DNA from: Candidatus Auribacterota bacterium
Lineage (GTDB): Bacteria; Auribacterota; JAFGBW01
Reading direction: 5' to 3'
Length of the DNA stretch: 13,445 bases
Assembly: GCA_016932965.1 (NCBI GenBank)
Contig: JAFGBW010000087.1
Coordinates: 1 to 13,445, forward strand
Position numbers and translations under genes: made by a program. How positions within the stretch are numbered: the first letter of the stretch is position 1; every line of letters begins with the position of its first letter. The notes beneath the pieces were generated by a model. It searched no databases and was not told where the DNA came from. It saw only the letters and a list, made by a program, of their open reading frames with translations. Positions 1-10,914 of this stretch are shown here, piece by piece.

Positions 1-32
1 GTTTCAATCCACGCGCCCGCGAGGGGCGCGAC
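1..32 (-). CRISPR. Leader-proximal type I-C CRISPR repeat; array continues off the left edge
   Basis: This is a single 32-bp repeat which, read on the minus strand, starts GTCGC and ends TGGATTGAAAC, the hallmark of type I-C repeats. A 7-bp stem (CGCGCCC at 12-18 with GGGCGCG at 24-30) encloses a 5-nt loop. Cleavage at the 3' base of the stem would leave the 11-nt 5' handle TGGATTGAAAC. No second copy occurs to the right, so 33 onward is leader and the spacers lie left of base 1, outside the window. The orientation agrees with the minus-strand cas operon, and the type agrees with cas8c. With only one repeat visible, the call rests on recognising the repeat and on its neighbours. Confidence 0.93.
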
Positions 33-616: not shown

Positions 617-1687
617 TTATCTCCAAATGAATGGCGGATAACCATCCAAATCCCCTCGTAAATAACGTGCGAATAACAATGCCTGCACATGAGGTAAAAG
701 CCCCATCTTAATTTTTTCACCGATAAACGGATGCAAGATTTCTTCCTGCTTTCGTTTCTGATATGCTACCAGCAGCTCTTTTCTTGTTTCATCATCCATA
801 AGCACAGCCCCTGTTTCTGTTTTATTAAAACCTTTTCCTCTGATTTGCTGCCGGTTGATAAGCGTCAATGCCAGACGGTCTGCAAGATAAACCCGGAATT
901 CTTCCATGAGATCCAACGCTAATCCCGGTCTTCCCGGCCTGTCCCTGTGAAGAAATCCGACTGCAGGATCAAGCCCCACAGCCTCACAGGCTGAACGAAC
1001 ATCATGCGAAAGCAGGGTATAAAGGAAGGAAAGAAGTGCATTCACATTATCCAGTGGCGGCCTTTTGTTTCTCTCATTGAAAATAAAATCCGACTTTTGA
1101 GAGGTGATTAAATGGTTAAATACTCCAAAATAACTTCTTGCAGCATCGCCTTCGATTCCCCTGACCCTATCCAGCAAAAGAGTAGGGTGCCCGCCGCATT
1201 CACCATGAACAGGATACTCATGACGCTTTAGTTGATCCAGCAACCCACCCATATGCCTGACCGCTTTTTCGATTTCTTCCTGATTTTCATTTTCGGTTTT
1301 TTCCCGTAAGCGTCTTAACAGGGATATTCTTGAATTTGCGATTTTTGCCATGACAATATTTCTTGCAATACGTCCGGATTCTTCAACATCATCCGACCTG
1401 CGATACTGCTCTTTTCTTAAAAGCACATTACCGCAAACCGGCCCCCTGATGCTTGCCATGTAACGGCCATTTTCATTCAAAAAAGAGACAGACACATTTT
1501 TTTCTGCACACATCCCCATTAAAAATGGACTCATGGAAATATTCCCGAAACACACAATCCCGCCAAGGTTATGTATAGGAAGGCGAAGCCTGACTTCCCT
1601 ATCCACATTGACACAGACGGTTTCACCTTCCTTGTTCAGGTAGGCGCCCTGGGTTGTGACATATAGTGTATTTAAAAGGTGTTTCAT
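617..1687 (-). CDS. cas1: CRISPR-associated endonuclease/integrase Cas1 (type I-C)
   Basis: Cas1 is the metal-dependent integrase that joins new spacers to the leader-end repeat as a Cas1-Cas2 complex. The product is 356 aa, at the long end of the family range. It begins MKHLLNTLYV, typical of I-C Cas1, with a beta-rich N-terminal domain (about 1-85) and an alpha-helical catalytic domain. Metal ligands are visible as Glu179 in RGIEGDAAR, His247 in GFLHRDRPGRPGLALDLMEEFR, and Asp259 (or Glu262) in the same motif. The start at 1687 has AAGGGA just upstream. That Shine-Dalgarno is part of a small hairpin (TCCC-GAA-GGGA), so translation may be damped. It lies between the ivp gene (38-bp gap) and cas2 (77-bp gap). 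All catalytic residues appear intact. Confidence 0.97.
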   Translation of the reverse strand: MKHLLNTLYVTTQGAYLNKEGETVCVNVDREVRLRLPIHNLGGIVCFGNISMSPFLMGMCAEKNVSVSFLNENGRYMASIRGPVCGNVLLRKEQYRRSDDVEESGRIARNIVMAKIANSRISLLRRLREKTENENQEEIEKAVRHMGGLLDQLKRHEYPVHGECGGHPTLLLDRVRGIEGDAARSYFGVFNHLITSQKSDFIFNERNKRPPLDNVNALLSFLYTLLSHDVRSACEAVGLDPAVGFLHRDRPGRPGLALDLMEEFRVYLADRLALTLINRQQIRGKGFNKTETGAVLMDDETRKELLVAYQKRKQEEILHPFIGEKIKMGLLPHVQALLFARYLRGDLDGYPPFIWR

Positions 1688-1733
1688 GGAGTCCCTTCGG
1701 GAATCTCATATCTAATATCTCAAATTTAAAATT
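1688..1733 (-). repeat. TTTGAGAT-type element and SD-masking hairpin upstream of cas1
   Basis: On the minus strand an AT-rich block (AAATTTGAGATATTAGATATGAGATT) runs into TCCC-GAA-GGGA (1692-1702), whose 3' arm is the cas1 Shine-Dalgarno AAGGGA. The stem continues beyond one mismatch (1690/1704, 1689/1705). The block overlaps the last codons and stop of the ivp gene (ending 1726). It closely resembles the elements at 214-242, 576-595, 2228-2243 and 10862-10890. Confidence 0.6.
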
Positions 1734-2208
1734 TCTTTTTTTCTGTATATTGTTGTAAAGACTTATAAAATTGTTCCTGTTTTTTCTTATGTTCATAAAC
1801 CTGTTTTGTTTTATCATCAAGATGCCTTTGGCCTTTGATATCGGTATTTTGCAGCGAATCCGTCCAGCCGCGTATCTGCCTGGAAATTGATTCAGCTTTT
1901 GATTTAAGATCTGAAATTTGAGATATAAAATTTTTAAAAACCGGCATTGATTCAAGAACGCATAGGATAGACCGGACTTCACCCGCTGAACCGCGGGCAT
2001 AATACAGAAAAGTGATCAATTCCTGGGTTGTTCCCCGCTCAAAGCCTTCGGCGATATTATTGGAAACAGATAATCCCGCCCGCTGGATTTGGTTTGCAAT
2101 ATCTCCTTTGAAACGGAATGATTTATCTTCAGTCAGGGAAAAAATATCTGTCGCCAGCTTAACCCCATCTTTCCAAACAGGGACATCCTCGAATCTTTCA
2201 TATTTCAT
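1726..2208 (-). CDS. Four-helix bundle protein, 23S rRNA intervening-sequence (IVP/S23) family
   Basis: The product is 160 aa. The family is recognised from the N-terminal FEDVPVWKDGVKLATDIFSL, the conserved RAGLSVSNNIAEGFERGT and the helix pair FLYYARGSAGEVRSIL; it folds as a four-helix bundle that forms pentamers. Some relatives are encoded inside 23S rRNA intervening sequences, but most copies, like this one, are free-standing, and the function is unknown. I chose the start at 2208 because AAAGGAGGGG lies directly upstream and the family usually starts just before this FEDVPVW motif; an upstream in-frame ATG (2340) lies inside cas4. The charged C-terminal 45 residues (KKKQEQFYKSLQQYTEKKK) extend past the usual roughly 120 aa. 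The gene is not a normal member of a I-C operon. It is bordered on both sides by TTTGAGAT elements, and its own sequence at 1901-1925 resembles them. Confidence 0.85.
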   Translation of the reverse strand: MKYERFEDVPVWKDGVKLATDIFSLTEDKSFRFKGDIANQIQRAGLSVSNNIAEGFERGTTQELITFLYYARGSAGEVRSILCVLESMPVFKNFISQISDLKSKAESISRQIRGWTDSLQNTDIKGQRHLDDKTKQVYEHKKKQEQFYKSLQQYTEKKKF

Positions 2209-2227
2209 TTCCCCTCCTTTTTGAATG

Positions 2228-2246: not shown

Positions 2247-2870
2247 TTATTCTTCTCCTATACTCTCCATGTATTTTTTTACCGACCCCTGCCCGGTGCG
2301 TCTGGGCATGCATAAATTCAATAACGAGCACCTTCCGCAACGCTCATCATATTCAGCTTGCGGGGTAATTGCCTGTTTGATGAATTCATGAAGTCTTATT
2401 GTTAAATTTTCAGTTTCATTTCGAAGCGTTTCATCAAAATTTACTTCCAGCCGGTGAAGAGTCTTTCCATAAAATATGGCACCTTTGGGAATACAAACTC
2501 CCAGCATTTCTTCAAGACATATAGCTTGTGCGCACAATTGCACCTTGTCACAATCATCCAACTTGGGTTTTCCACGTTTATATTCAACAGGGAAAGGCAG
2601 CCATGTATTATTTGCTTTATGAAATTCGACCACATCGGCCTTTCCTATCAATCTCAGTTTAAAGGAACGAAGTGCAAGCCCTCGTTCAATCCGGATATTT
2701 CCTCTGGATTCATGGCCTTCCTCATGACATTTTTCATGCATGATCCTGCCTTCGGCCGTAAAACGATTTTCCTCCCACACCTGTTCAATATGTATGAGCG
2801 CACATTGCCGTTCACAAAACATCAGGTGCTGAAGAGCGGAAATCGGAAGAAGATCGTCTTCGGAGTACAT
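2247..2870 (-). CDS. cas4: Cas4 exonuclease (type I-C adaptation)
   Basis: Cas4 is a RecB-like Fe-S nuclease that trims prespacers in a PAM-dependent way and hands them to Cas1-Cas2. The 207-aa product shows the family signatures in order: LPISALQHLMFCERQC (Cys19/Cys23), His45 in GRIMHEKCH, Asp79 in GKADVVEF, Glu96/Lys98 in PVEYKRGK, and Gln111 in QLCAQA. The C-terminal cluster cysteines are Cys178, Cys181 and Cys187 in ERCGRCSLLNLC. The nuclease site and the four-Cys cluster look intact. The start MYSEDDLLPIS is typical of I-C Cas4. No convincing Shine-Dalgarno precedes it. Instead a 6-codon upstream ORF with an AAGG ends 2 bp before the ATG, and a 40-bp dyad lies further upstream. Guest genes sit on both sides. 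Confidence 0.95.
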   Translation of the reverse strand: MYSEDDLLPISALQHLMFCERQCALIHIEQVWEENRFTAEGRIMHEKCHEEGHESRGNIRIERGLALRSFKLRLIGKADVVEFHKANNTWLPFPVEYKRGKPKLDDCDKVQLCAQAICLEEMLGVCIPKGAIFYGKTLHRLEVNFDETLRNETENLTIRLHEFIKQAITPQAEYDERCGRCSLLNLCMPRRTGQGSVKKYMESIGEE

Positions 2871-3007: not shown

Positions 3008-3506
3008 TTATGCATTCACTTTTGCACCTATCAGCCTTTTAATTCTTTTCTCCAGAGCCTTTCTGGCATCCCCAGCAATTTCAGGTGAAGAAATCCCTTC
3101 CAGCATGTTGAAAACATCATTCACGTCAGTAGTTTCAATATTTCTTTCCTGCATCTCCTGTAATCGTTCAAACGCTGTCTTTGCCAGCCAGCGTCTGACC
3201 GACTCAGCCCTTGGGGAAGGAATCGCCTGAATGATTCGGAATGCGCCTTCCAGGGTAACGCAATCAAAAAACGTTTTCCCTGCTCTTGTCTGAATCAGGC
3301 GAGGGGCGACAAGCCGCCCCCACTCCTGATCAAGCATCGGATCACTGGCCTTTACTTTCCGGAAATTTTCCTGAAAAATCCCCGGATTCCATAAACCCGT
3401 TTACAACATCCTCCACGGCAAACCACCATTCGTTTTCATGAAAGGTCTTGCGGATACGCCTGTCCGCTATCATGGACTGAGAGGGGGATTGATCCTTGTT
3501 GTTCAT
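3008..3506 (-). pseudogene. Bro-N/DinD-type protein gene with a frameshift, embedded between cas7 and cas4
   Basis: Two overlapping reading frames together make a Bro-N (phage antirepressor/DinD-like) protein. The first (3506-3342, 54 codons) starts with AGGAG upstream and encodes RRIRKTFHENEWWFAVEDVV, the usual domain start. The second (open to 3008) supplies FRKVKASDPMLDQEWGRLV and VTLEGAFRIIQAIPSPRAES, then a short tail ending SSPEIAGDARKALEKR. Removing one T from a five-T run (3374-3378, A on the plus strand) joins them into about 165 aa with the natural reading ESGDFQENFRKVK. Even repaired, it lacks roughly 100 residues of the usual C-terminal middle. Family members are DNA-binding or antirepressor-like proteins of phages and mobile regions and are not known I-C components. 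A one-base insertion, a sequencing error and +1 slippage at TTT-T are all possible; a true pseudogene is most likely. The second half may still be translated from the ATG at 3337. Confidence 0.75.
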
Positions 3507-3543: not shown

Positions 3544-4380
3544 TTAAAGTTTTTCTATGATTTCGATTCCATTCGGCAATTTATCCTTTTTTACTTCAAC
3601 TGAATAATCTTTCCATTCCCTTGGAAGGTCAGCAGTTTTCTTGATCACAACACGATCAAACAGTTCACCAGAACGGGCATTTCCGAGATGACTTCCGTGC
3701 TTGAAGACAACAAGTTTTCTGGGATTCATTTCTCCGCGGGCAGCGGCTCGGTCATGCTCAAAGGCATTTAAAAGCGCTTCCCATAAAAGATTCAAATCAT
3801 TTTCTGAAAATCCGGTTTTTTGTGCATCAACGGCGGAAATAAACCCGTGCATTCTGTAAAGGGCGTAGGGGACAGTAGCTTTACGGCCAAAGGTTGAAGC
3901 ATGTTCTCTTTTTTCTTGTTTTTTTGCTTCTTCTTTAGTTGTAACTGCGCACCGTGTTACTGAATGTTCTGACTGATAAATTCTATCTTCAGAACGTGAG
4001 AATGTGAATTGTACAGGTCCCCTGACAGTACCTGCGCCTTTGTCGCCAGTACTTAAAACGGCTCCAAAAGTTCTTATGTCAAAATAATTCCCACATAAAT
4101 CTTTTTGTCTGTCCTGAGGTTTATCCCCTTTTGCAGAATCAATTACATCATTTAAAATATTTTCCTGCCGAATAAAAATATCATAGGGAGTTTTCAAGGA
4201 TTCTTTCAATTGGACGTAATTCCTGACTTTTCTTTTTATACAAACATCCGTAACCAGTCCCTCCTGATTTTCAGCATCGGATCTTGGAAGATTTGCCTGA
4301 TCCGGGTCTCCGTTCGGATTGCCATCTTTCACATCAAATAAATAAACAAAGTCATAACGATTTTTAATTGCATCACTCAT
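3544..4380 (-). CDS. cas7c: Cas7c (Csd2), Cascade backbone subunit
   Basis: Cas7c polymerises along the crRNA spacer to form the backbone of the I-C effector (about seven copies per complex in characterised systems). The 278-aa product matches the family length. It begins RYDFVYLFDVKDGNPNGDPD, the Csd2 signature, followed by the NLPRSDAENQEGLVTDVCIKRKVRNY RRM-like core. Later blocks such as IRTFGAVLS, GTVRGPVQFTFSRS, ITKKEEAK-like helices and GRKATVPYALYRMHGF are typical of the family. The start at 4380 has AAAGGAGA 8 bp upstream, located in the 3' end of cas8c. cas7 begins 2 bp after the cas8c stop, so the genes are likely translationally coupled. A stable hairpin directly follows its stop. 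Confidence 0.97.
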   Translation of the reverse strand: MSDAIKNRYDFVYLFDVKDGNPNGDPDQANLPRSDAENQEGLVTDVCIKRKVRNYVQLKESLKTPYDIFIRQENILNDVIDSAKGDKPQDRQKDLCGNYFDIRTFGAVLSTGDKGAGTVRGPVQFTFSRSEDRIYQSEHSVTRCAVTTKEEAKKQEKREHASTFGRKATVPYALYRMHGFISAVDAQKTGFSENDLNLLWEALLNAFEHDRAAARGEMNPRKLVVFKHGSHLGNARSGELFDRVVIKKTADLPREWKDYSVEVKKDKLPNGIEIIEKL

Positions 4381-4382
4381 GA

Positions 4383-4781
4383 TTAATTCTCCTTTATTGT
4401 TTCTTTGGATTCAGATTTATTAAATTGACGTTCTTTTTGATGGTAATACCCGATAGCGAATTGCCCCTGCTGTTCCAGCGAAAAAGTCGCTGACAATTTT
4501 GCAATTTCAATTTTTCCCACCAACGCTTGTAATTCTTTATCAAGATTCACAGCCAAACCAGGCTTATCACTTTTTAATTTTGTAAAATGTTTTGCATTAA
4601 GATTGAATAATCTTCCAAATGCCGCCAGTGGGGCAGTCATGGCATAGCTGAAATATTTTTCACGTATCCCGCTATTTCTATCCCCCAGGGCCGCATATTG
4701 AATGCTTTCAATCTTGGCAAATATCTGTCCCGCCACATAAGCAGGGTTTTCATTTGCCGGATCAAGTTGTTCATTAATCAT
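4383..4781 (-). CDS. cas11c: Cas11c (small Cascade subunit) from an internal start in cas8c
   Basis: In type I-C systems the small subunit is made by internal initiation within cas8c; this is established for other I-C operons. Here, in frame with cas8c, ATG at 4781 is preceded by AAAGGAGGG (4785-4793) with a 3-bp gap, one of the strongest Shine-Dalgarno sequences in the window. The product would be 132 aa, starting MINEQLDPANENPAYVAGQI, the expected boundary (NPAY..G..FA.IE) and size for Cas11c. Two copies normally line the belly of Cascade next to Cas7. It shares its stop with cas8c. The start follows from the sequence; actual translation is inferred. Confidence 0.82.
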   Translation of the reverse strand: MINEQLDPANENPAYVAGQIFAKIESIQYAALGDRNSGIREKYFSYAMTAPLAAFGRLFNLNAKHFTKLKSDKPGLAVNLDKELQALVGKIEIAKLSATFSLEQQGQFAIGYYHQKERQFNKSESKETIKEN

Positions 4782-6119
4782 AATCCCTCCTTTAAAATTA
4801 CGGTTTAAAATAAGACGAATAATTGACGCTCGCTGAAAGGTGACCCCCTCAAGCCGGATTCTCTTTAATACTGAAGTTAAAACCCAGAGTGGTGGTGCAG
4901 AATTTTTTAAAGCACAATTCCATAAATGAACGGCTGTTCTGGACAAGGTATAGTGTTTTGTCTCATCCATATTCTGACCTGTTCTGGCCAAATCGTACAA
5001 TCTGGGATAAAGTATTTTGGTTTGTTTTAACGCAGAATCATAGTGACTGATTTTTATATCCTGAAACCATTTGGCAATTTGATTTCTCAAATTTTCAAGA
5101 CTGGTCTCAATCCAGTCACGAACGGCTATACGCGCAGACACTCCGGAAAGTGTACATGAATAAAACTGATCGGTTTGAATGTATCGTGACTGATTTTTTG
5201 AACCCGATGCAACCGACTCAATCAAAGAAGAAACAGCTTGTTCATCTGGCTGTTCCAGAAAATCAATTTCTTCTACTTTTTGATTTTCTTTGGTCCAGAA
5301 AACCATTGCTGTATCGGGACCAAAATTTTTTCTATGATTGAATTTATAATATTCCTTTCCCTTCTCGTTTAAAGTCGGAGATCCATCATTCATTAACCAT
5401 CCCAGGCCTTCAACGTAGGTTTTTGCGCAATTGGTGCAGATTGAAGAATTTTGATTCCCTTCTAATCCATATGATTCGAATGCATCATTATTAAAAGAAA
5501 CCAAAGCACAACCAGAAGTTGTTCCTTCAGGTACTCTTTTTATCATCCCATGGGGAATATCCTCAACAGGATATTCATTTTTTCCACAAATTGAACACGT
5601 TTTGGCTATAGTTGCTAATTTACTTTTTTGAGCTTCTTCATATTTTTGGATGATGGATTCCTGCACTTCCAAATTATCATGAATTCTTGAATCCATGTTA
5701 TGAAGTCTAAAAGCTATATTCCCTTTTCGTTCTTTTTCAGGAATTTTGGATTCAAACAAGGATAGAGCCAATTCTACACCTTTTTCTTTATTCCTATTAT
5801 AAAAAGCCAAGACAGGCTGAATACTTTTTAAATTGGAATATTCATTTAGCTTTTCAAGAAAGAGTTGATGCTTTTTCTTTGAAGCCTCACCTCCATACTG
5901 CAATATTTCTTCGGCCTTATCTAATAACAGGCGGGCTTTACCTTTTTTAGCTGTAATTGCCTCCACTCTTTTTGCCATCTGCTTTTCAAATAAGAAAAAA
6001 TCCTGAAAACTACCATCTTCACCAATTAACAAATCAATCGAAAATGGCTCATCTTTCAGTGCATTATGGGATTCGCTACTTCTTAATTTTTTTCCCAGTT
6101 CACTTAATTCCTTTATCAT
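4383..6119 (-). CDS. cas8c: Cas8c (Csd1), large Cascade subunit
   Basis: Cas8c recognises the PAM, helps open the target duplex and recruits Cas3; it is the signature protein of subtype I-C. The product is 578 aa, within the usual range. The central region holds a zinc-finger-like set, CSICGK (Cys175, Cys178) and CTNCAK (Cys228, Cys231), a Csd1 hallmark. Family blocks such as GLGWLMNDGSPTL, FWTKEN and LSRTAVHLWNCALKN follow. The C-terminal part, from IMINEQLDPANENPAYVAGQIFA onward, is the helical Cas11-like domain and has its own internal start (separate entry). The start codon overlaps the cas5c stop as ATGA (6116-6119), indicating coupling, and cas7c follows after 2 bp. Confidence 0.96.
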   Translation of the reverse strand: MIKELSELGKKLRSSESHNALKDEPFSIDLLIGEDGSFQDFFLFEKQMAKRVEAITAKKGKARLLLDKAEEILQYGGEASKKKHQLFLEKLNEYSNLKSIQPVLAFYNRNKEKGVELALSLFESKIPEKERKGNIAFRLHNMDSRIHDNLEVQESIIQKYEEAQKSKLATIAKTCSICGKNEYPVEDIPHGMIKRVPEGTTSGCALVSFNNDAFESYGLEGNQNSSICTNCAKTYVEGLGWLMNDGSPTLNEKGKEYYKFNHRKNFGPDTAMVFWTKENQKVEEIDFLEQPDEQAVSSLIESVASGSKNQSRYIQTDQFYSCTLSGVSARIAVRDWIETSLENLRNQIAKWFQDIKISHYDSALKQTKILYPRLYDLARTGQNMDETKHYTLSRTAVHLWNCALKNSAPPLWVLTSVLKRIRLEGVTFQRASIIRLILNRNFKGGIMINEQLDPANENPAYVAGQIFAKIESIQYAALGDRNSGIREKYFSYAMTAPLAAFGRLFNLNAKHFTKLKSDKPGLAVNLDKELQALVGKIEIAKLSATFSLEQQGQFAIGYYHQKERQFNKSESKETIKEN

Positions 6120-6853
6120 ACACCGACCTCCATTTTTTCCTTTTGATTGAAGTCATAGATAACGGCAGATATATTGCTATCTTCAGGCGGCCTTTTATGG
6201 GTGGCCTTCATCATTTTTTCATTTTCAGGTACTTCACAATTTAAAATACCGTTCTTTACAGCTACATCATAAAAAAATATCGGCTCCGGCTTTCCCTGTT
6301 CATTGAAATAAATATCGAACAACATGCTCCCAATAGGAATAGTTTCTTCCAAAGGTTGTTCTTTGCCCACCGGTTCAAAAAATTCTGCTGCAAATTCTTT
6401 TGTACCGAGAAAAGGCCTTCGCCAGCATTGCCCTTTACGAACTCTTCTCCTGAATATTTCCACATATTTTTTTGGCGGATTTTCTTTTAAAAATGAATCC
6501 TGATAAATGGAAGCCTCAATAATGTAAGAAACATCTTTTAAAACTATGCTGTTCCGCTGAGCTCGATTTACGGGCTTTCCTAATGAATTTACTTCATCAA
6601 TAATAATTGGATTTTTACCCTGCTTTGAATTTATTTCATTTCTACGGACAGAAAAGAATTTAACCGGGTTAAGAATCCAGATTTTCCGCACATACCATTT
6701 GAATTCCGGCTTCCATAAAATGGAATCCAGAACTCCCCTTGCTGCTGAAGGCGTCATGCAGGGATATGTCATCCGCTCCACCTTCAAATCAGGCCGGGTG
6801 AAACAGGCAAATTCTCCTGTTACCTTGACCCTTAAAATTTCACTATCAAGCAT
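6116..6853 (-). CDS. cas5c: Cas5c (Cas5d), expected pre-crRNA endoribonuclease and 5'-handle cap
   Basis: In type I-C, which lacks Cas6, Cas5c cuts pre-crRNA at the base of the repeat hairpin and stays on the 5' handle. The 245-aa product has the family landmarks: a first RRM strand (ILRVKVTGEFACFTRPDLKVE), MTPSAARGVLDSILWKP, VRRNEI, the FRRRVRKGQCWRRPFLGTKEF block and GSMLFDIYF. AAGGAGGG lies upstream of the ATG at 6853, 22 bp after cas3, and its stop overlaps the cas8c start. As I recall B. halodurans Cas5d, the active residues are Tyr46, Lys116 and His117 (SIYWKP, GKHYSILQR). Here the matching positions read Leu46 (SILWKP), Lys129 and Tyr130 (PKKYVEIFRR). Two of the three catalytic residues therefore appear replaced. 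Tyr54 or Tyr130 might compensate. Confidence 0.95.
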   Translation of the reverse strand: MLDSEILRVKVTGEFACFTRPDLKVERMTYPCMTPSAARGVLDSILWKPEFKWYVRKIWILNPVKFFSVRRNEINSKQGKNPIIIDEVNSLGKPVNRAQRNSIVLKDVSYIIEASIYQDSFLKENPPKKYVEIFRRRVRKGQCWRRPFLGTKEFAAEFFEPVGKEQPLEETIPIGSMLFDIYFNEQGKPEPIFFYDVAVKNGILNCEVPENEKMMKATHKRPPEDSNISAVIYDFNQKEKMEVGV

Positions 6854-6875: not shown

Positions 6876-9050
6876 TTATACAATCATTTCTTCCACGGTT
6901 AATGGATCAACCACTATTCCGGTTTCATCATATTTACCATTCCAAAGCCAATAACCCTGGGTTTTGTCTTCAATCTTTTTTTCTTCCAGCCATACCCTGT
7001 GTTTCAATAAAAAATTCCTGTAAACAGGAACTGAAAAGACCTGCATTTTTCTGAAATCTTCTTTTGATAAATAAGGTTTGTATCGTATGCTTTCATATAG
7101 TGTCCGACTGTCGTCATTGTAATTCCAGACAAAAATACTTTCTGTTGCCTGATCTATAATACGGAAGGCATCATTAACAGTTTCAAACATGAATTCTAAT
7201 CTTGCCTGATTAATTTTTTTCTTATCCGGGTCGGCATATAATTTTATGATGCGTTTATAATATTCTTTAAAAAAGTCATGTTCATGGAGTCGGTTTATAT
7301 CAGCCTTAATAAGATTTTCTGCCTCCTGCGCGTATGCACCATAATTCTTATCCGGCATTTTTTCGCCTTCAAGTTTGAATAGCATGACATTGCCTAATCT
7401 GTTCATTTTCCCCTCACGGTTGCATCGACCCGCTGACTGAATAATGGATTCCAGCGGAGCCATTGCACGCATGACACAAGGGAAATCAAAATCAACTCCC
7501 GCTTCAATAAGTTGAGTTGATGAAACAAATATTTTAATTCTATCCGCTAAATCTTTGCGTATAGAATCAATAACTGCCCACCTGTGAACAGGACACATGG
7601 AAGTAGATAAATGATAGATTTTTTCAAATTCTTTTATATTGATGCCTGCTACCTGGTAACACTCGCGAGCGGATTTCTTTGTATTGAAAATAACAAGTAC
7701 GGAATCTTTCTGTTGTACCGCTTCTGCCCATAAATCAGTCATAGAAACAGGAACAAGATCATTTTTAAAAAAATAGGATACACGCTTTGTTTTATCGAAA
7801 AGTAATTTTGAATCCTCAACCAAGGGAGTAATATTCTCTATTCCTTCAAAATCCGCCCTTTTCTCAAAAGCCGGTAATGTGGCTGTACAAAATAAGAAAG
7901 ATGAATTCATGACAGATTGAATATTTTTAAGCAGAGTCAAAACCGGAAGAATGACATCTTTTGGAATGGATTGCACTTCATCGAAAATGATTACGGATTC
8001 CGAAATATTATGAATTTTCCTGCATTTTGAAGGCTTATTGCTGAAAAGAGATTCAAAAAATTGTACTGTCGTTGTAACAATAATCGGATAATCCCAATTT
8101 TCAGTCGCCAAAAGTTTTCTTTTTTGTATGGGATCAATATTTTCTTTATCATCCTTATCATTTTCATTGTAATTGGAATGATGCTCCAAGACCCATTCAT
8201 CGCCAAAAATATTTTTCAAAATGCGGGCAGTTTGATCAATGATGTTAATATAAGGCAGAATCAAGATCAGCCTTTTCATTTTATTTTCTTTGGCATGGCG
8301 CATTGCCCATGAAACAGAGGATAACGTTTTTCCAAGACCTGTCGGAACATTTAGAGAATAAAATCCGCATGGAAGCCCTGATTTTTTCAAAACTTCTGTA
8401 AGAACCTGATTTCTTAATTGATTAATTTCCCCGGTTTTTTCTTTACTATCAATAAGGTCTTTCAGCCTGCGGATCATTTCATCCAAAGGCCAAAATTTAC
8501 TTTCTCTTGTAGTTGCCTTATCAGGCTCAAAATGAGCTTCTGTATCCAGCCAGTCTGCGTCTGTTAAACTGCTGAATAGATAACGGACAAAACATTCCCT
8601 ATGCATTGGATCGGAAAATTTGATGTTGGAAATTTTAAAATCTGATTCTGATATATGATTATCTTTCAAGTACGTTTGAACAACCTGATCAAAATTTATG
8701 ACATCATTGTGAATATAAGGGTCAACATCGCCTTTCCAATGGCTTCGATCAGGAATTCCCTTATGATGGCCATCTATAGCAAATGAGATTTCATTTTGTT
8801 TCAATATTCTTGAATAACCAGCACCCCAGCTTGCGTGTGGAACACTTCCCCTTTCTCCACTATTAACCAAATAGGTTTGAAAATCTGTTTGATATTTTCC
8901 CAGATCATGAAACATTCCAGCCCAATAAAAAAACTTACTCCAATCTTTATTGAGACAAAAAGATTCAGCTAGTTTTGCCGTTTTATTGAGATGATCTGAC
9001 AATAAATGCCGTTTACCCTGATCATTTTCCGAATGTGCGTAATATTCCAT
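6876..9050 (-). CDS. cas3: Cas3 helicase-nuclease (type I-C, HD plus SF2)
   Basis: Cas3 is recruited by target-bound Cascade and unwinds and degrades DNA 3' to 5'. The 724-aa product is full length for I-C. The N-terminal HD nuclease shows His20 (DHLNKTAKLAESF), the HD pair in MFHDLGK (48-49), HH around 95-96 (DGHHKG) and SLTDADWLD (Asp164). The SF2 helicase shows Walker A VPTGLGKT (235-242), DEVQ (357-360), CTATLP (388-393), VLVIFNTKKSA (451-461), SSTQLIEAGVDFD (510-522) and QSAGRCNREG (538-547). A C-terminal domain with YWLWNGKYDETGIV closes it. All catalytic motifs appear intact. The start at 9050 has GGGGGA upstream. It begins 3 bp after a remnant of a different cas3, and cas5c follows after 22 bp. 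Confidence 0.97.
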   Translation of the reverse strand: MEYYAHSENDQGKRHLLSDHLNKTAKLAESFCLNKDWSKFFYWAGMFHDLGKYQTDFQTYLVNSGERGSVPHASWGAGYSRILKQNEISFAIDGHHKGIPDRSHWKGDVDPYIHNDVINFDQVVQTYLKDNHISESDFKISNIKFSDPMHRECFVRYLFSSLTDADWLDTEAHFEPDKATTRESKFWPLDEMIRRLKDLIDSKEKTGEINQLRNQVLTEVLKKSGLPCGFYSLNVPTGLGKTLSSVSWAMRHAKENKMKRLILILPYINIIDQTARILKNIFGDEWVLEHHSNYNENDKDDKENIDPIQKRKLLATENWDYPIIVTTTVQFFESLFSNKPSKCRKIHNISESVIIFDEVQSIPKDVILPVLTLLKNIQSVMNSSFLFCTATLPAFEKRADFEGIENITPLVEDSKLLFDKTKRVSYFFKNDLVPVSMTDLWAEAVQQKDSVLVIFNTKKSARECYQVAGINIKEFEKIYHLSTSMCPVHRWAVIDSIRKDLADRIKIFVSSTQLIEAGVDFDFPCVMRAMAPLESIIQSAGRCNREGKMNRLGNVMLFKLEGEKMPDKNYGAYAQEAENLIKADINRLHEHDFFKEYYKRIIKLYADPDKKKINQARLEFMFETVNDAFRIIDQATESIFVWNYNDDSRTLYESIRYKPYLSKEDFRKMQVFSVPVYRNFLLKHRVWLEEKKIEDKTQGYWLWNGKYDETGIVVDPLTVEEMIV

Positions 9051-9053
9051 AAT

Positions 9054-9161
9054 TTATTCCCCCACCGCGGCGACATCGAGACAGTGGTAAGGCAGGAGAT
9101 GATAATTCCCCTCCTTGTCCGCCTTGCCCCAGTATTGGTAATAGGATTTATCCAAAGTCAT
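9054..9161 (-). pseudogene. Remnant of a type I-E-like cas3 (N-terminal 35 codons)
   Basis: The minus strand encodes [14 protein letters not shown], then [16 protein letters not shown] and a stop. YWGK followed by [12 protein letters not shown] is the signature start of type I-E Cas3 HD domains (Escherichia coli Cas3, as I recall it, has CHYWGKSS and [17 protein letters not shown]). His26 would be the first metal-ligand histidine. The reading stops after VGE, and the intact I-C cas3 begins 3 bp later with an unrelated N-terminus. The rest of the I-E gene is therefore missing. The ATG overlaps the stop of an upstream small ORF (ATGA), and the frame is undamaged. This looks like a recombination scar where an I-C operon replaced a I-E cas3. 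It may still be translated as a 35-aa peptide. Confidence 0.72.
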
Positions 9162-9262
9162 ATCGTTACCTGTCTTTCCAATTCATCCCGCGCTTCTTGC
9201 CGGTAAAAACACAGAGATTCCGCGTGGTTTGAAAATGGGAAATTTAAAACTTGATTGAACAT
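9158..9262 (-). CDS. Small ORF (34 aa) upstream of the cas3 remnant, unknown
   Basis: ATG at 9262 has AAGGGGGA (9271-9278) 8 bp upstream. The product [19 protein letters not shown] continues to a charged tail ending [12 protein letters not shown], and its stop overlaps the ATG of the cas3 remnant (ATGA), as in coupled genes. It lies 31 bp after the Sel1-repeat gene. I do not recognise it. It could be a real small protein, or the tail of a gene that once preceded the I-E cas3. Confidence 0.35.
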
Positions 9263-9293
9263 GAAATGGGTCCCCCTTCATGACAAAAGAAAG

Positions 9294-10718
9294 TCATATT
9301 ATGACCCTCTTTCCCTGATCCGTAAACCTTATATTTTCACCAAATCCCCGTGACGCAGACCTGTTTAGCAGCAGACAGGTCGCGTCCTCAAGGTCCGTTA
9401 AAACATATTCAGCTACCCATCCCTTGTCTTTTAAATAAGCGCTCAAATGATAAAAAGCCTCCCCCAGCTCGTACCTGGCGCCGGAATCATCTCCTTCAAC
9501 CCCCTCTGAAAATAAACGCTTCATCCTGCTTCTTTCTCCCGAATGAAAATGATGAAGCAGTCCTTTGATCTTTTCTTTTTGTTCCATCGAAAAATCCGGC
9601 GGCTTTGAATCCCCATCTCCTTCTGTTTTCAGTTCAGACCCGGGTTTTTTCGATGAAACCGCACTGATGCTCTCGTTCATAAAAGCAGATTCCTTTATCT
9701 GCTCCAGCAGAGCCTTCGCCTTCCCGGATAAAAGCGTATTCCCCCTGGAAACCACCTCTTCTGCCAGGCATTTCGCCTTCGACAGGCTGCTTTCGCACCC
9801 TTTGCCTGTCAGGTACAGACCCGCCAAAGCGTATTTCGCATACATGTCATCCTGCCCTGCCGCTTTCAATAACCATCCAAAACCATTTGCATACCGTTTA
9901 GCGCGAAGACACAAACACCCCATCTTTGTCTGGGCAATTGCCTTCCCCTGCCCGGCTGATTCCTCGATTTTCATAAATTCCTGGAATATCCTGACCTGAT
10001 ATGAATGAAGGACACCCGGGGTTCCGCATGAAAACCGTTCTGCGCTTTTGATGTATACCGGAATCAATTCATCCAGCCATGTCCAGGCATATTCATCCCC
10101 GAGCAGGATGGCTTCCAGAAGTAAATGTAAAGCCCGGACATGACTTTGAGGACGAAAACACAAACCATCATTTCTCAGATACAGTTTCGCCAGTTCCACC
10201 CGGGCTTCCAAACTCCCCCTTCTGATCCAGCTTTTGAGACATTTAAAAGGGCCGGTCCAGTTCTCATGGAGAGGCCTCTTTTCAAACAGTTTTTTCAAAT
10301 ACGTCTCGGCTTCAGCCTCCCGGGATTCGGCAATCCGTCTATATAAGTCGAACGCTTTGTCATGGTCTTTGTTAACAATACAGCCGCTTTCATACAACCT
10401 GCCCAAATAATACAACGCCTTTGCATTACCCCCCTCGGCGGCTTTTATCAGCCAGTAAAAAACTTCAAACCGGAATTCCTCGTCCTCGCCGTCTGACATA
10501 TTTCTTGTACAGCCCATTTTTAAAAAAAAATACAGCTGTGTTCCAAGCTGTCCTTCTTTTTTATGATCCCCGTTCAACACGCCGAGATACAGGATTTTAT
10601 AAACCGGGATTTCATCCATGGGCAGAATTTTAAACCAGAAAGGAAACACAACCTCCCCTGGATATTTCCGCCTTTTATACAGCAGATAATCCGCCTCGGT
10701 TAGACAACGTGATGACAT
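9294..10718 (-). CDS. Sel1-repeat (TPR-like) protein, upstream of the cas operon
   Basis: The 474-aa product has Sel1-like helical repeats. The clearest span about 86-140 (VFYWLIKAAEGGNAKALYYLGRLYESGCIVNKDHDKAFDLYRRIA) and 279-325 (GFGWLLKAAGQDDMYAKYALAGLYLTGKG and the following helix), with weaker ones at about 168-210 and 255-275. A low-complexity linker (about 350-378) leads to a C-terminal helical segment. Such repeats act as protein-interaction scaffolds. I see no signal peptide or membrane segment, so it is probably cytoplasmic; its partner is unknown. The start at 10718 has AGAGG upstream. It is the first gene in the cas direction, 31 bp before the next ORF, so it may be co-transcribed with cas. 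Sel1 proteins are not standard I-C components. Confidence 0.85.
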   Translation of the reverse strand: MSSRCLTEADYLLYKRRKYPGEVVFPFWFKILPMDEIPVYKILYLGVLNGDHKKEGQLGTQLYFFLKMGCTRNMSDGEDEEFRFEVFYWLIKAAEGGNAKALYYLGRLYESGCIVNKDHDKAFDLYRRIAESREAEAETYLKKLFEKRPLHENWTGPFKCLKSWIRRGSLEARVELAKLYLRNDGLCFRPQSHVRALHLLLEAILLGDEYAWTWLDELIPVYIKSAERFSCGTPGVLHSYQVRIFQEFMKIEESAGQGKAIAQTKMGCLCLRAKRYANGFGWLLKAAGQDDMYAKYALAGLYLTGKGCESSLSKAKCLAEEVVSRGNTLLSGKAKALLEQIKESAFMNESISAVSSKKPGSELKTEGDGDSKPPDFSMEQKEKIKGLLHHFHSGERSRMKRLFSEGVEGDDSGARYELGEAFYHLSAYLKDKGWVAEYVLTDLEDATCLLLNRSASRGFGENIRFTDQGKRVII

Positions 10719-10846: not shown

Positions 10847-10861
10847 TTTATTAAAAAATAA

Positions 10862-10914
10862 TTTGAGATTTGAAATCTTGCATTTGAGATTCATCATGCC
10901 TGAAGGCATGATGA
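10862..10914 (+). repeat. TTTGAGAT-type element and perfect hairpin upstream of xre
   Basis: The AT-rich block (TTTGAGATTTGAAATCT then CATTTGAGATT) runs into TCATCATGCC-TGAA-GGCATGATGA (10891-10914), a perfect 10-bp stem with a TGAA tetraloop. It ends 16 bp before the start codon and just before the Shine-Dalgarno AAAGGA. The same ATTCATCATGCC word in the same order occurs upstream of cas2. Confidence 0.7.

Follow-up and report, generated by a model that had tools for sequence, protein, structure and literature searches.

Remnant of a type I-E cas3 gene directly upstream of a type I-C cas3 in an Auribacterota contig: probable scar of a CRISPR operon replacement

Introduction

CRISPR subtypes turn over fast, and direct traces of the replacement of one subtype by another at the same spot have rarely been pointed out. 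The closest described relics are the cas3 pseudogenes of Salmonella and Shigella, which represent the last relic of deleted type I-E operons (PMC2886076). There, the operon was lost without replacement, whereas in the window analyzed here, a stretch of 13,445 nucleotides from Candidatus Auribacterota bacterium (GenBank assembly GCA_016932965.1, contig JAFGBW010000087.1), the remnant, which comprises the first 35 codons, lies directly against the start codon of another subtype's cas3. A second point of comparison is the horizontal acquisition of type I-C operons, for example in the Vibrionaceae, where one such region has a GC content of 40% in a genome of 48% GC (PMC6360697). The likeness is that complete I-C operons arrive as units, but the operons of the Vibrionaceae are described as inserted at new sites or on mobile elements and not as joined to the cas3 of another subtype.

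Short upstream ORFs or leader peptides can be translationally coupled to the following gene, with a stop codon next to the downstream start and possible re-initiation. The window resembles such coupled leader ORFs in that the stop adjoins the downstream start, but its fragment has neither a conserved sequence nor a known regulator. In the open-access literature, we found no case described in which the start of one subtype's cas3 adjoins another subtype's cas3 with stop-start spacing, and a placement of this kind, stop-start-coupled to a replacement cas3, seems to be undescribed.

Results

The draft metagenome-type contig belongs to a genome that is 92.6% complete and distributed over 300 contigs. 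It contains the following features (coordinates of the window):

1..32, plus strand: CRISPR repeat, sole copy left on the contig; the array continues past the contig end
249..539, minus strand: cas2, profile match
617..1687, minus strand: cas1c, 508.1 bits against a cut-off of 385
2247..2870, minus strand: cas4, profile match
3544..4380, minus strand: cas7/csd2, 311.3 bits against a cut-off of 182.25
4383..6119, minus strand: cas8c/csd1, 280.5 bits against a cut-off of 218.65
6116..6853, minus strand: cas5c, 133.9 bits against a cut-off of 85
6876..9050, minus strand: complete cas3 (type I-C-like, 724 aa) with a start of its own, as the alignment with MSAFYAHSEN... of G210 shows
9051..9053, minus strand: gap of 3 nt (ATT) separating the fragment's TAA from the I-C cas3 ATG; junction within a few bases
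9054..9161, minus strand: N-terminal fragment of a type I-E cas3, ORF of 35 codons plus stop; profile matches and DNA similarity
9162..9293, minus strand: intergenic stretch from the Sel1-repeat gene to the fragment, putative 5' leader
9294..10718, minus strand: gene for a Sel1-repeat protein, upstream of the fragment on the same strand; host-like GC content (47%)

The assignment of the operon to type I-C is based on Cas5c, Cas8c, Cas7 and Cas1c, all of which score above the curated I-C cut-offs, and agrees with the first-pass annotation, which had called the neighboring effector clearly I-C. The order cas3-cas5-cas8c-cas7-cas4-cas1-cas2 is also that of type I-C, with extra ORFs between cas7 and cas4 and between cas4 and cas1. 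The latter interval harbors a gene for a 23S rRNA-intervening-sequence (four-helix) protein (1726-2226, minus strand, 4.9e-22), and the 109-aa ORF between cas7 and cas4 (3008-3337, minus strand) has a weak similarity to the end of a BRO-N domain (0.001, below the cut-off) and is possibly the remnant of an insertion. At its very beginning the contig carries one complete repeat, GTTTCAATCCACGCGCCCGCGAGGGGCGCGAC, which we take to be of the I-C type; a second copy of this repeat was not found elsewhere in the genome.

Directly upstream of this operon, an ORF of 35 codons is located on the minus strand (ATG at 9161-9159, TAA at 9056-9054). Its peptide matches positions 3-38 of 878 of NCBIfam PRK09694, the I-E Cas3 equivalog, with an E-value of 6e-10 and profile positions 1-27 of Pfam Cas3_HD (PF18019) with 1.5e-7, and it contains the N-terminal motif of type I-E Cas3, YWGK...HLLxYHxLDVAAV. 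Together with the nearest relatives, which are also I-E, these matches bear out the earlier proposal that the frame is the start of a type I-E Cas3. Within this family, the peptide corresponds to approximately residues 1-35, but the ORF ends at residue 35, and the window keeps the first few percent of the protein, with the HD nuclease and helicase domains absent. Judged by its domain content, the ORF is only a fragment of a Cas3 and not a Cas3. A PDB search with the 35-aa peptide gave no match, the query being too short.

The conserved motifs of the peptide were scanned in one genome per species. This yielded 117 confirmed loci, and the best 80 were retained. All of these 80 belong to cas3, and the open frame continues in nearly every case as a gene of about 800-925 aa; in a few the gene is broken later or cut by the contig end, and a free-standing 35-aa gene did not occur among the assessable genes of this set. 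The first-pass annotation had left room for a non-Cas3 family as best match; instead, the best matches are I-E Cas3 N-termini, and no other family was met among the best 80 of the 117 loci. Closest to the peptide within this set are Smithella, Syntrophaceae and another deltaproteobacterium with 85-90% at the amino acid level over 30 residues, and the nearest relatives are the N-termini of intact I-E Cas3s from Syntrophales/deltaproteobacteria (L087, L109, L124). The DNA similarity to the nearest I-E cas3 genes amounts to 75-81%, sets in among the first codons and ends near 9060. A comparison by codon with L087 revealed 14 identical codons, 13 with synonymous differences only and 2 with residue changes. 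Because of this predominance of synonymous differences, we conclude that the fragment was selected as a real Cas3 until recently, and on the codon pattern it is the little-decayed start of a true I-E cas3. That a spurious ORF resembles Cas3 by chance might be considered for a frame of only 35 codons, but the probability is negligible and chance can be excluded, because both E-values were obtained in whole libraries, the match starts at the first residues of the family and the DNA similarity to intact genes reaches 81%.

The ATG of the I-C cas3 (9050-9048) is in the same frame as the fragment, which stops 3 bp before it, as previously noted, and in a six-frame profile search both together form one 768-aa frame with a single TAA. 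The G-rich sequence GGTGGGGG is located about 8 nt upstream of this ATG and could be the ribosome-binding site of the I-C cas3. The I-E homology of the fragment ends at the junction and the GC content shifts there too, from 50% in the fragment to 35.6% in the I-C cas3, with 47-49% in the Sel1, XRE-like and tpiA genes; the corresponding GC3 values at the junction are 64% for the fragment and 30% for the I-C cas3. Composition alone is weak and only supporting, because some 108-bp segments in the operon (mean GC 0.39, sd 0.06, maximum 0.56) reach 56% GC and the fragment falls inside this range. The arrangement of an old-operon fragment abutting a new operon, with homology that ends at the junction, is that of an operon-replacement scar. 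It is also that of a coupled leader ORF, with a stop a few nucleotides from the downstream start and a putative ribosome-binding site nearby, and the spacing suggests that translation of cas3 may be coupled to the fragment.

A panel of Cas3 N-termini was compared with the DNA upstream of cas3 at 30-odd I-C-like loci. At three of these loci, namely the window, G210 and G388, a truncated N-terminal Cas3 fragment ends at the start of cas3. In G210, the fragment has 37 aa (L137:5414-5524, MPVAEEKTKEFYAHNIEGKPVQEWQLFEYHLNRTANI) and its TAA overlaps the cas3 ATG as TAATG; in G388 (L139), it has about 58 aa (...KEGCIHSLRDHLITTSELALQMSRMFDVVCWLRCAQLWHEIRNSK) and overlaps the ATG as ATGA. The occurrence of comparable fragments in G210 and G388 shows that joins of this sort recur. 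The G210 fragment represents the resident cas3 type of its family, because it is 79.5% identical over 78 bp of DNA to the broken cas3 start of the relative G063; the reading frame of the G210 I-C cas3 is itself interrupted after about 480 codons, with non-cas genes downstream. Neither MPPSDKKAKAFYTHS at L139:183 nor the YWGK-like matches in L028 and L029 were accepted as scars. Ahead of about 30 other I-C-like cas3 loci, an I-E fragment was not found. The 35-aa ORF itself is missing there as well, and its interpretation as an independent conserved leader gene of I-C loci, which the first-pass annotation had named as a counter-explanation, was rejected for this reason.

The first stop lies at most 6 nt upstream of the ATG or overlaps it in any given frame in 18.5% of cases (27 I-C-like cas3 starts), compared with all three fragments. 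This is a small, after-the-fact count, and the placement is consistent with selection of those joins that let the old start feed into the new gene. It could also be argued that the 35-aa ORF was kept as a working leader peptide, selected either for an effect on cas3 translation (coupling or regulation) or as a small protein touching the effector complex, since the open frame is undecayed with mostly synonymous differences from intact relatives, the stop-start spacing in the window, G210 and G388 is typical of coupling and a G-rich stretch lies 8 nt ahead of the cas3 ATG. However, a recent event explains the absence of decay equally well, most I-C-like cas3 genes are without any such fragment, and no peptide sequence is conserved as a leader, because the three fragments (35, 37 and about 58 aa) differ in Cas3 type and length. 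We regard a kept leader function as quite unlikely. Even less probability, and in fact very little, is left for an assembly or binning artefact: the junction is known from the assembly alone and the draft contig breaks in the array, but the junction has no repeat, the break coincides exactly with an intact gene's start codon, two further assemblies show this architecture too, and copies of a dispersed intergenic motif flank the junction on either side (551-616 and 10849-10914).

Broken cas3 starts were observed in other contexts as well. In G063 (L198:1875-2045), a start of about 57 residues runs into unrelated DNA, after which there is no cas operon, and the DNA 5' of this start shares 85% identity with the cas locus of G388. 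G331 (L201:2100-2310) contains an I-E-type Cas3 N-terminal relic with no operon behind, and in G249 (L200:1-330) a broken cas3 start leads straight into an apparent I-C-type CRISPR repeat near the contig end.

The first-pass annotation had further assumed that the old promoter was kept. This retention is not supported, because the DNA 5' of the coding region of the fragment has no similarity to any I-E locus; a single, weak promoter-like match is located at 9326-9298, and expression by read-through from the co-oriented Sel1 gene is equally possible. The upstream DNA of G388/G389 and their shared MPxxDEKT start were considered as proof of promoter retention and set aside, as the similarity is partly due to a dispersed repeat, about 100-150 bp long and present several times at each locus. 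This repeat is found in one small phylum, in L204 (2941-3086, 3947-4048, 4896-5040), L203 and L198, and one copy forms the start of a cas3 gene (MPxxDEKT).

The genome was also searched for further traces of a I-E system: at 92.6% completeness, a profile search yielded no other I-E Cas3, and Cas7e was likewise not found. The nearest I-C cas3 genes belong to other phyla (G130 with 59%, G210 with 57%), compared with at most 39% in the same phylum, which fits a transferred operon. Plasmid and phage I-C cas3 genes are all less than 40% identical to that of the window, plasmids contained no related DNA, viral contigs contained neither the I-E motif nor close relatives of the I-C cas3, and a scan of the genome collection with the I-C Cas3 gave no confirmed locus. 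On the right flank, tpiA has 43-57% similarity to other genomes of the phylum, as for a host gene. For the Sel1 gene, partial repeat-type matches and no full-length counterpart were found in 42 other genomes of the phylum, and we found no relative in which the Sel1 gene and tpiA enclose an intact I-E operon.

These data bear on the possibility that the join was formed elsewhere and that a I-C operon already bearing the I-E cas3 start entered as one piece, which would not imply any resident I-E operon. The fragment is indeed closest to deltaproteobacterial I-E Cas3s and not to the one good I-E Cas3 in the phylum (G004, 69% over the peptide), and the genome is without any other I-E gene tested (Cas3, Cas7e). 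However, the GC content of the fragment is like that of the right-hand flank and unlike that of the I-C operon, none of the about 30 other I-C-like cas3 loci has a I-E fragment, and G210, the nearest locus with readable upstream DNA, has another fragment type. Entry as a single piece seems unlikely to us, although it is less so than a kept leader.

Discussion

We assume, with a probability of roughly 0.75, that a type I-C operon replaced a resident type I-E operon and that the start of the old cas3 was left as a scar. This core of the first-pass annotation is strengthened by the identity of the fragment, the end of homology, the GC shift and the parallels in G210 and G388, whereas the retention of the old promoter is not supported. 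In the case of such a replacement, the resident type I-E operon would have been lost at this site, the loss running from inside cas3 in the direction of the array, and its place would have been taken by a complete type I-C operon, joined there together with its array. The upstream breakpoint would be located inside the resident cas3, just past codon 34-35 and a few bases from the incoming cas3 start codon, and because it fell inside this gene, the first 35 codons of the old cas3 would have survived as a short ORF. We infer the order of these events from the anatomy and the homology of the window; the join may have been formed by illegitimate recombination or by a deletion after insertion, as one sequence fits either.

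Ribosomes ending at the TAA of the fragment, near the G-rich sequence 8 nt ahead of the ATG, would probably re-initiate on the new cas3, which would make the relic a passive 5' leader. A remnant ahead of the new cas3 points to a way in which an incoming operon could become expressed immediately. Furthermore, an in-frame remnant of the old nuclease gene names the lost system and dates the swap as recent. As the same join arose separately elsewhere with other Cas3 types, the data suggest that the 5' end of cas3 is often the last survivor of a lost or replaced operon, and its presence in unrelated lineages makes a systematic search for scars possible. A more general idea, which we put forward only tentatively and consider doubtful, is that the breaks in swaps of type I operons repeatedly fall early in the resident cas3, within its first 35-60 codons, and leave the new cas3 immediately downstream of the old start, and that these joins are selected because stop-start coupling makes them work; if this is true, the scars would be a readable record of the earlier CRISPR subtype of each genome.

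As a minor observation, a dispersed AT-rich motif (AAATCTCAAATTT-like) is present at 212-241, 551-616, 1709-1732, 1901-1924, 2220-2243 and 10849-10914, in intergenic stretches of the I-C operon and past the Sel1 gene. Two of the copies are fused to a CATGATG...CATCATG hairpin, and 551-616 and 10849-10914 form an inverted pair.
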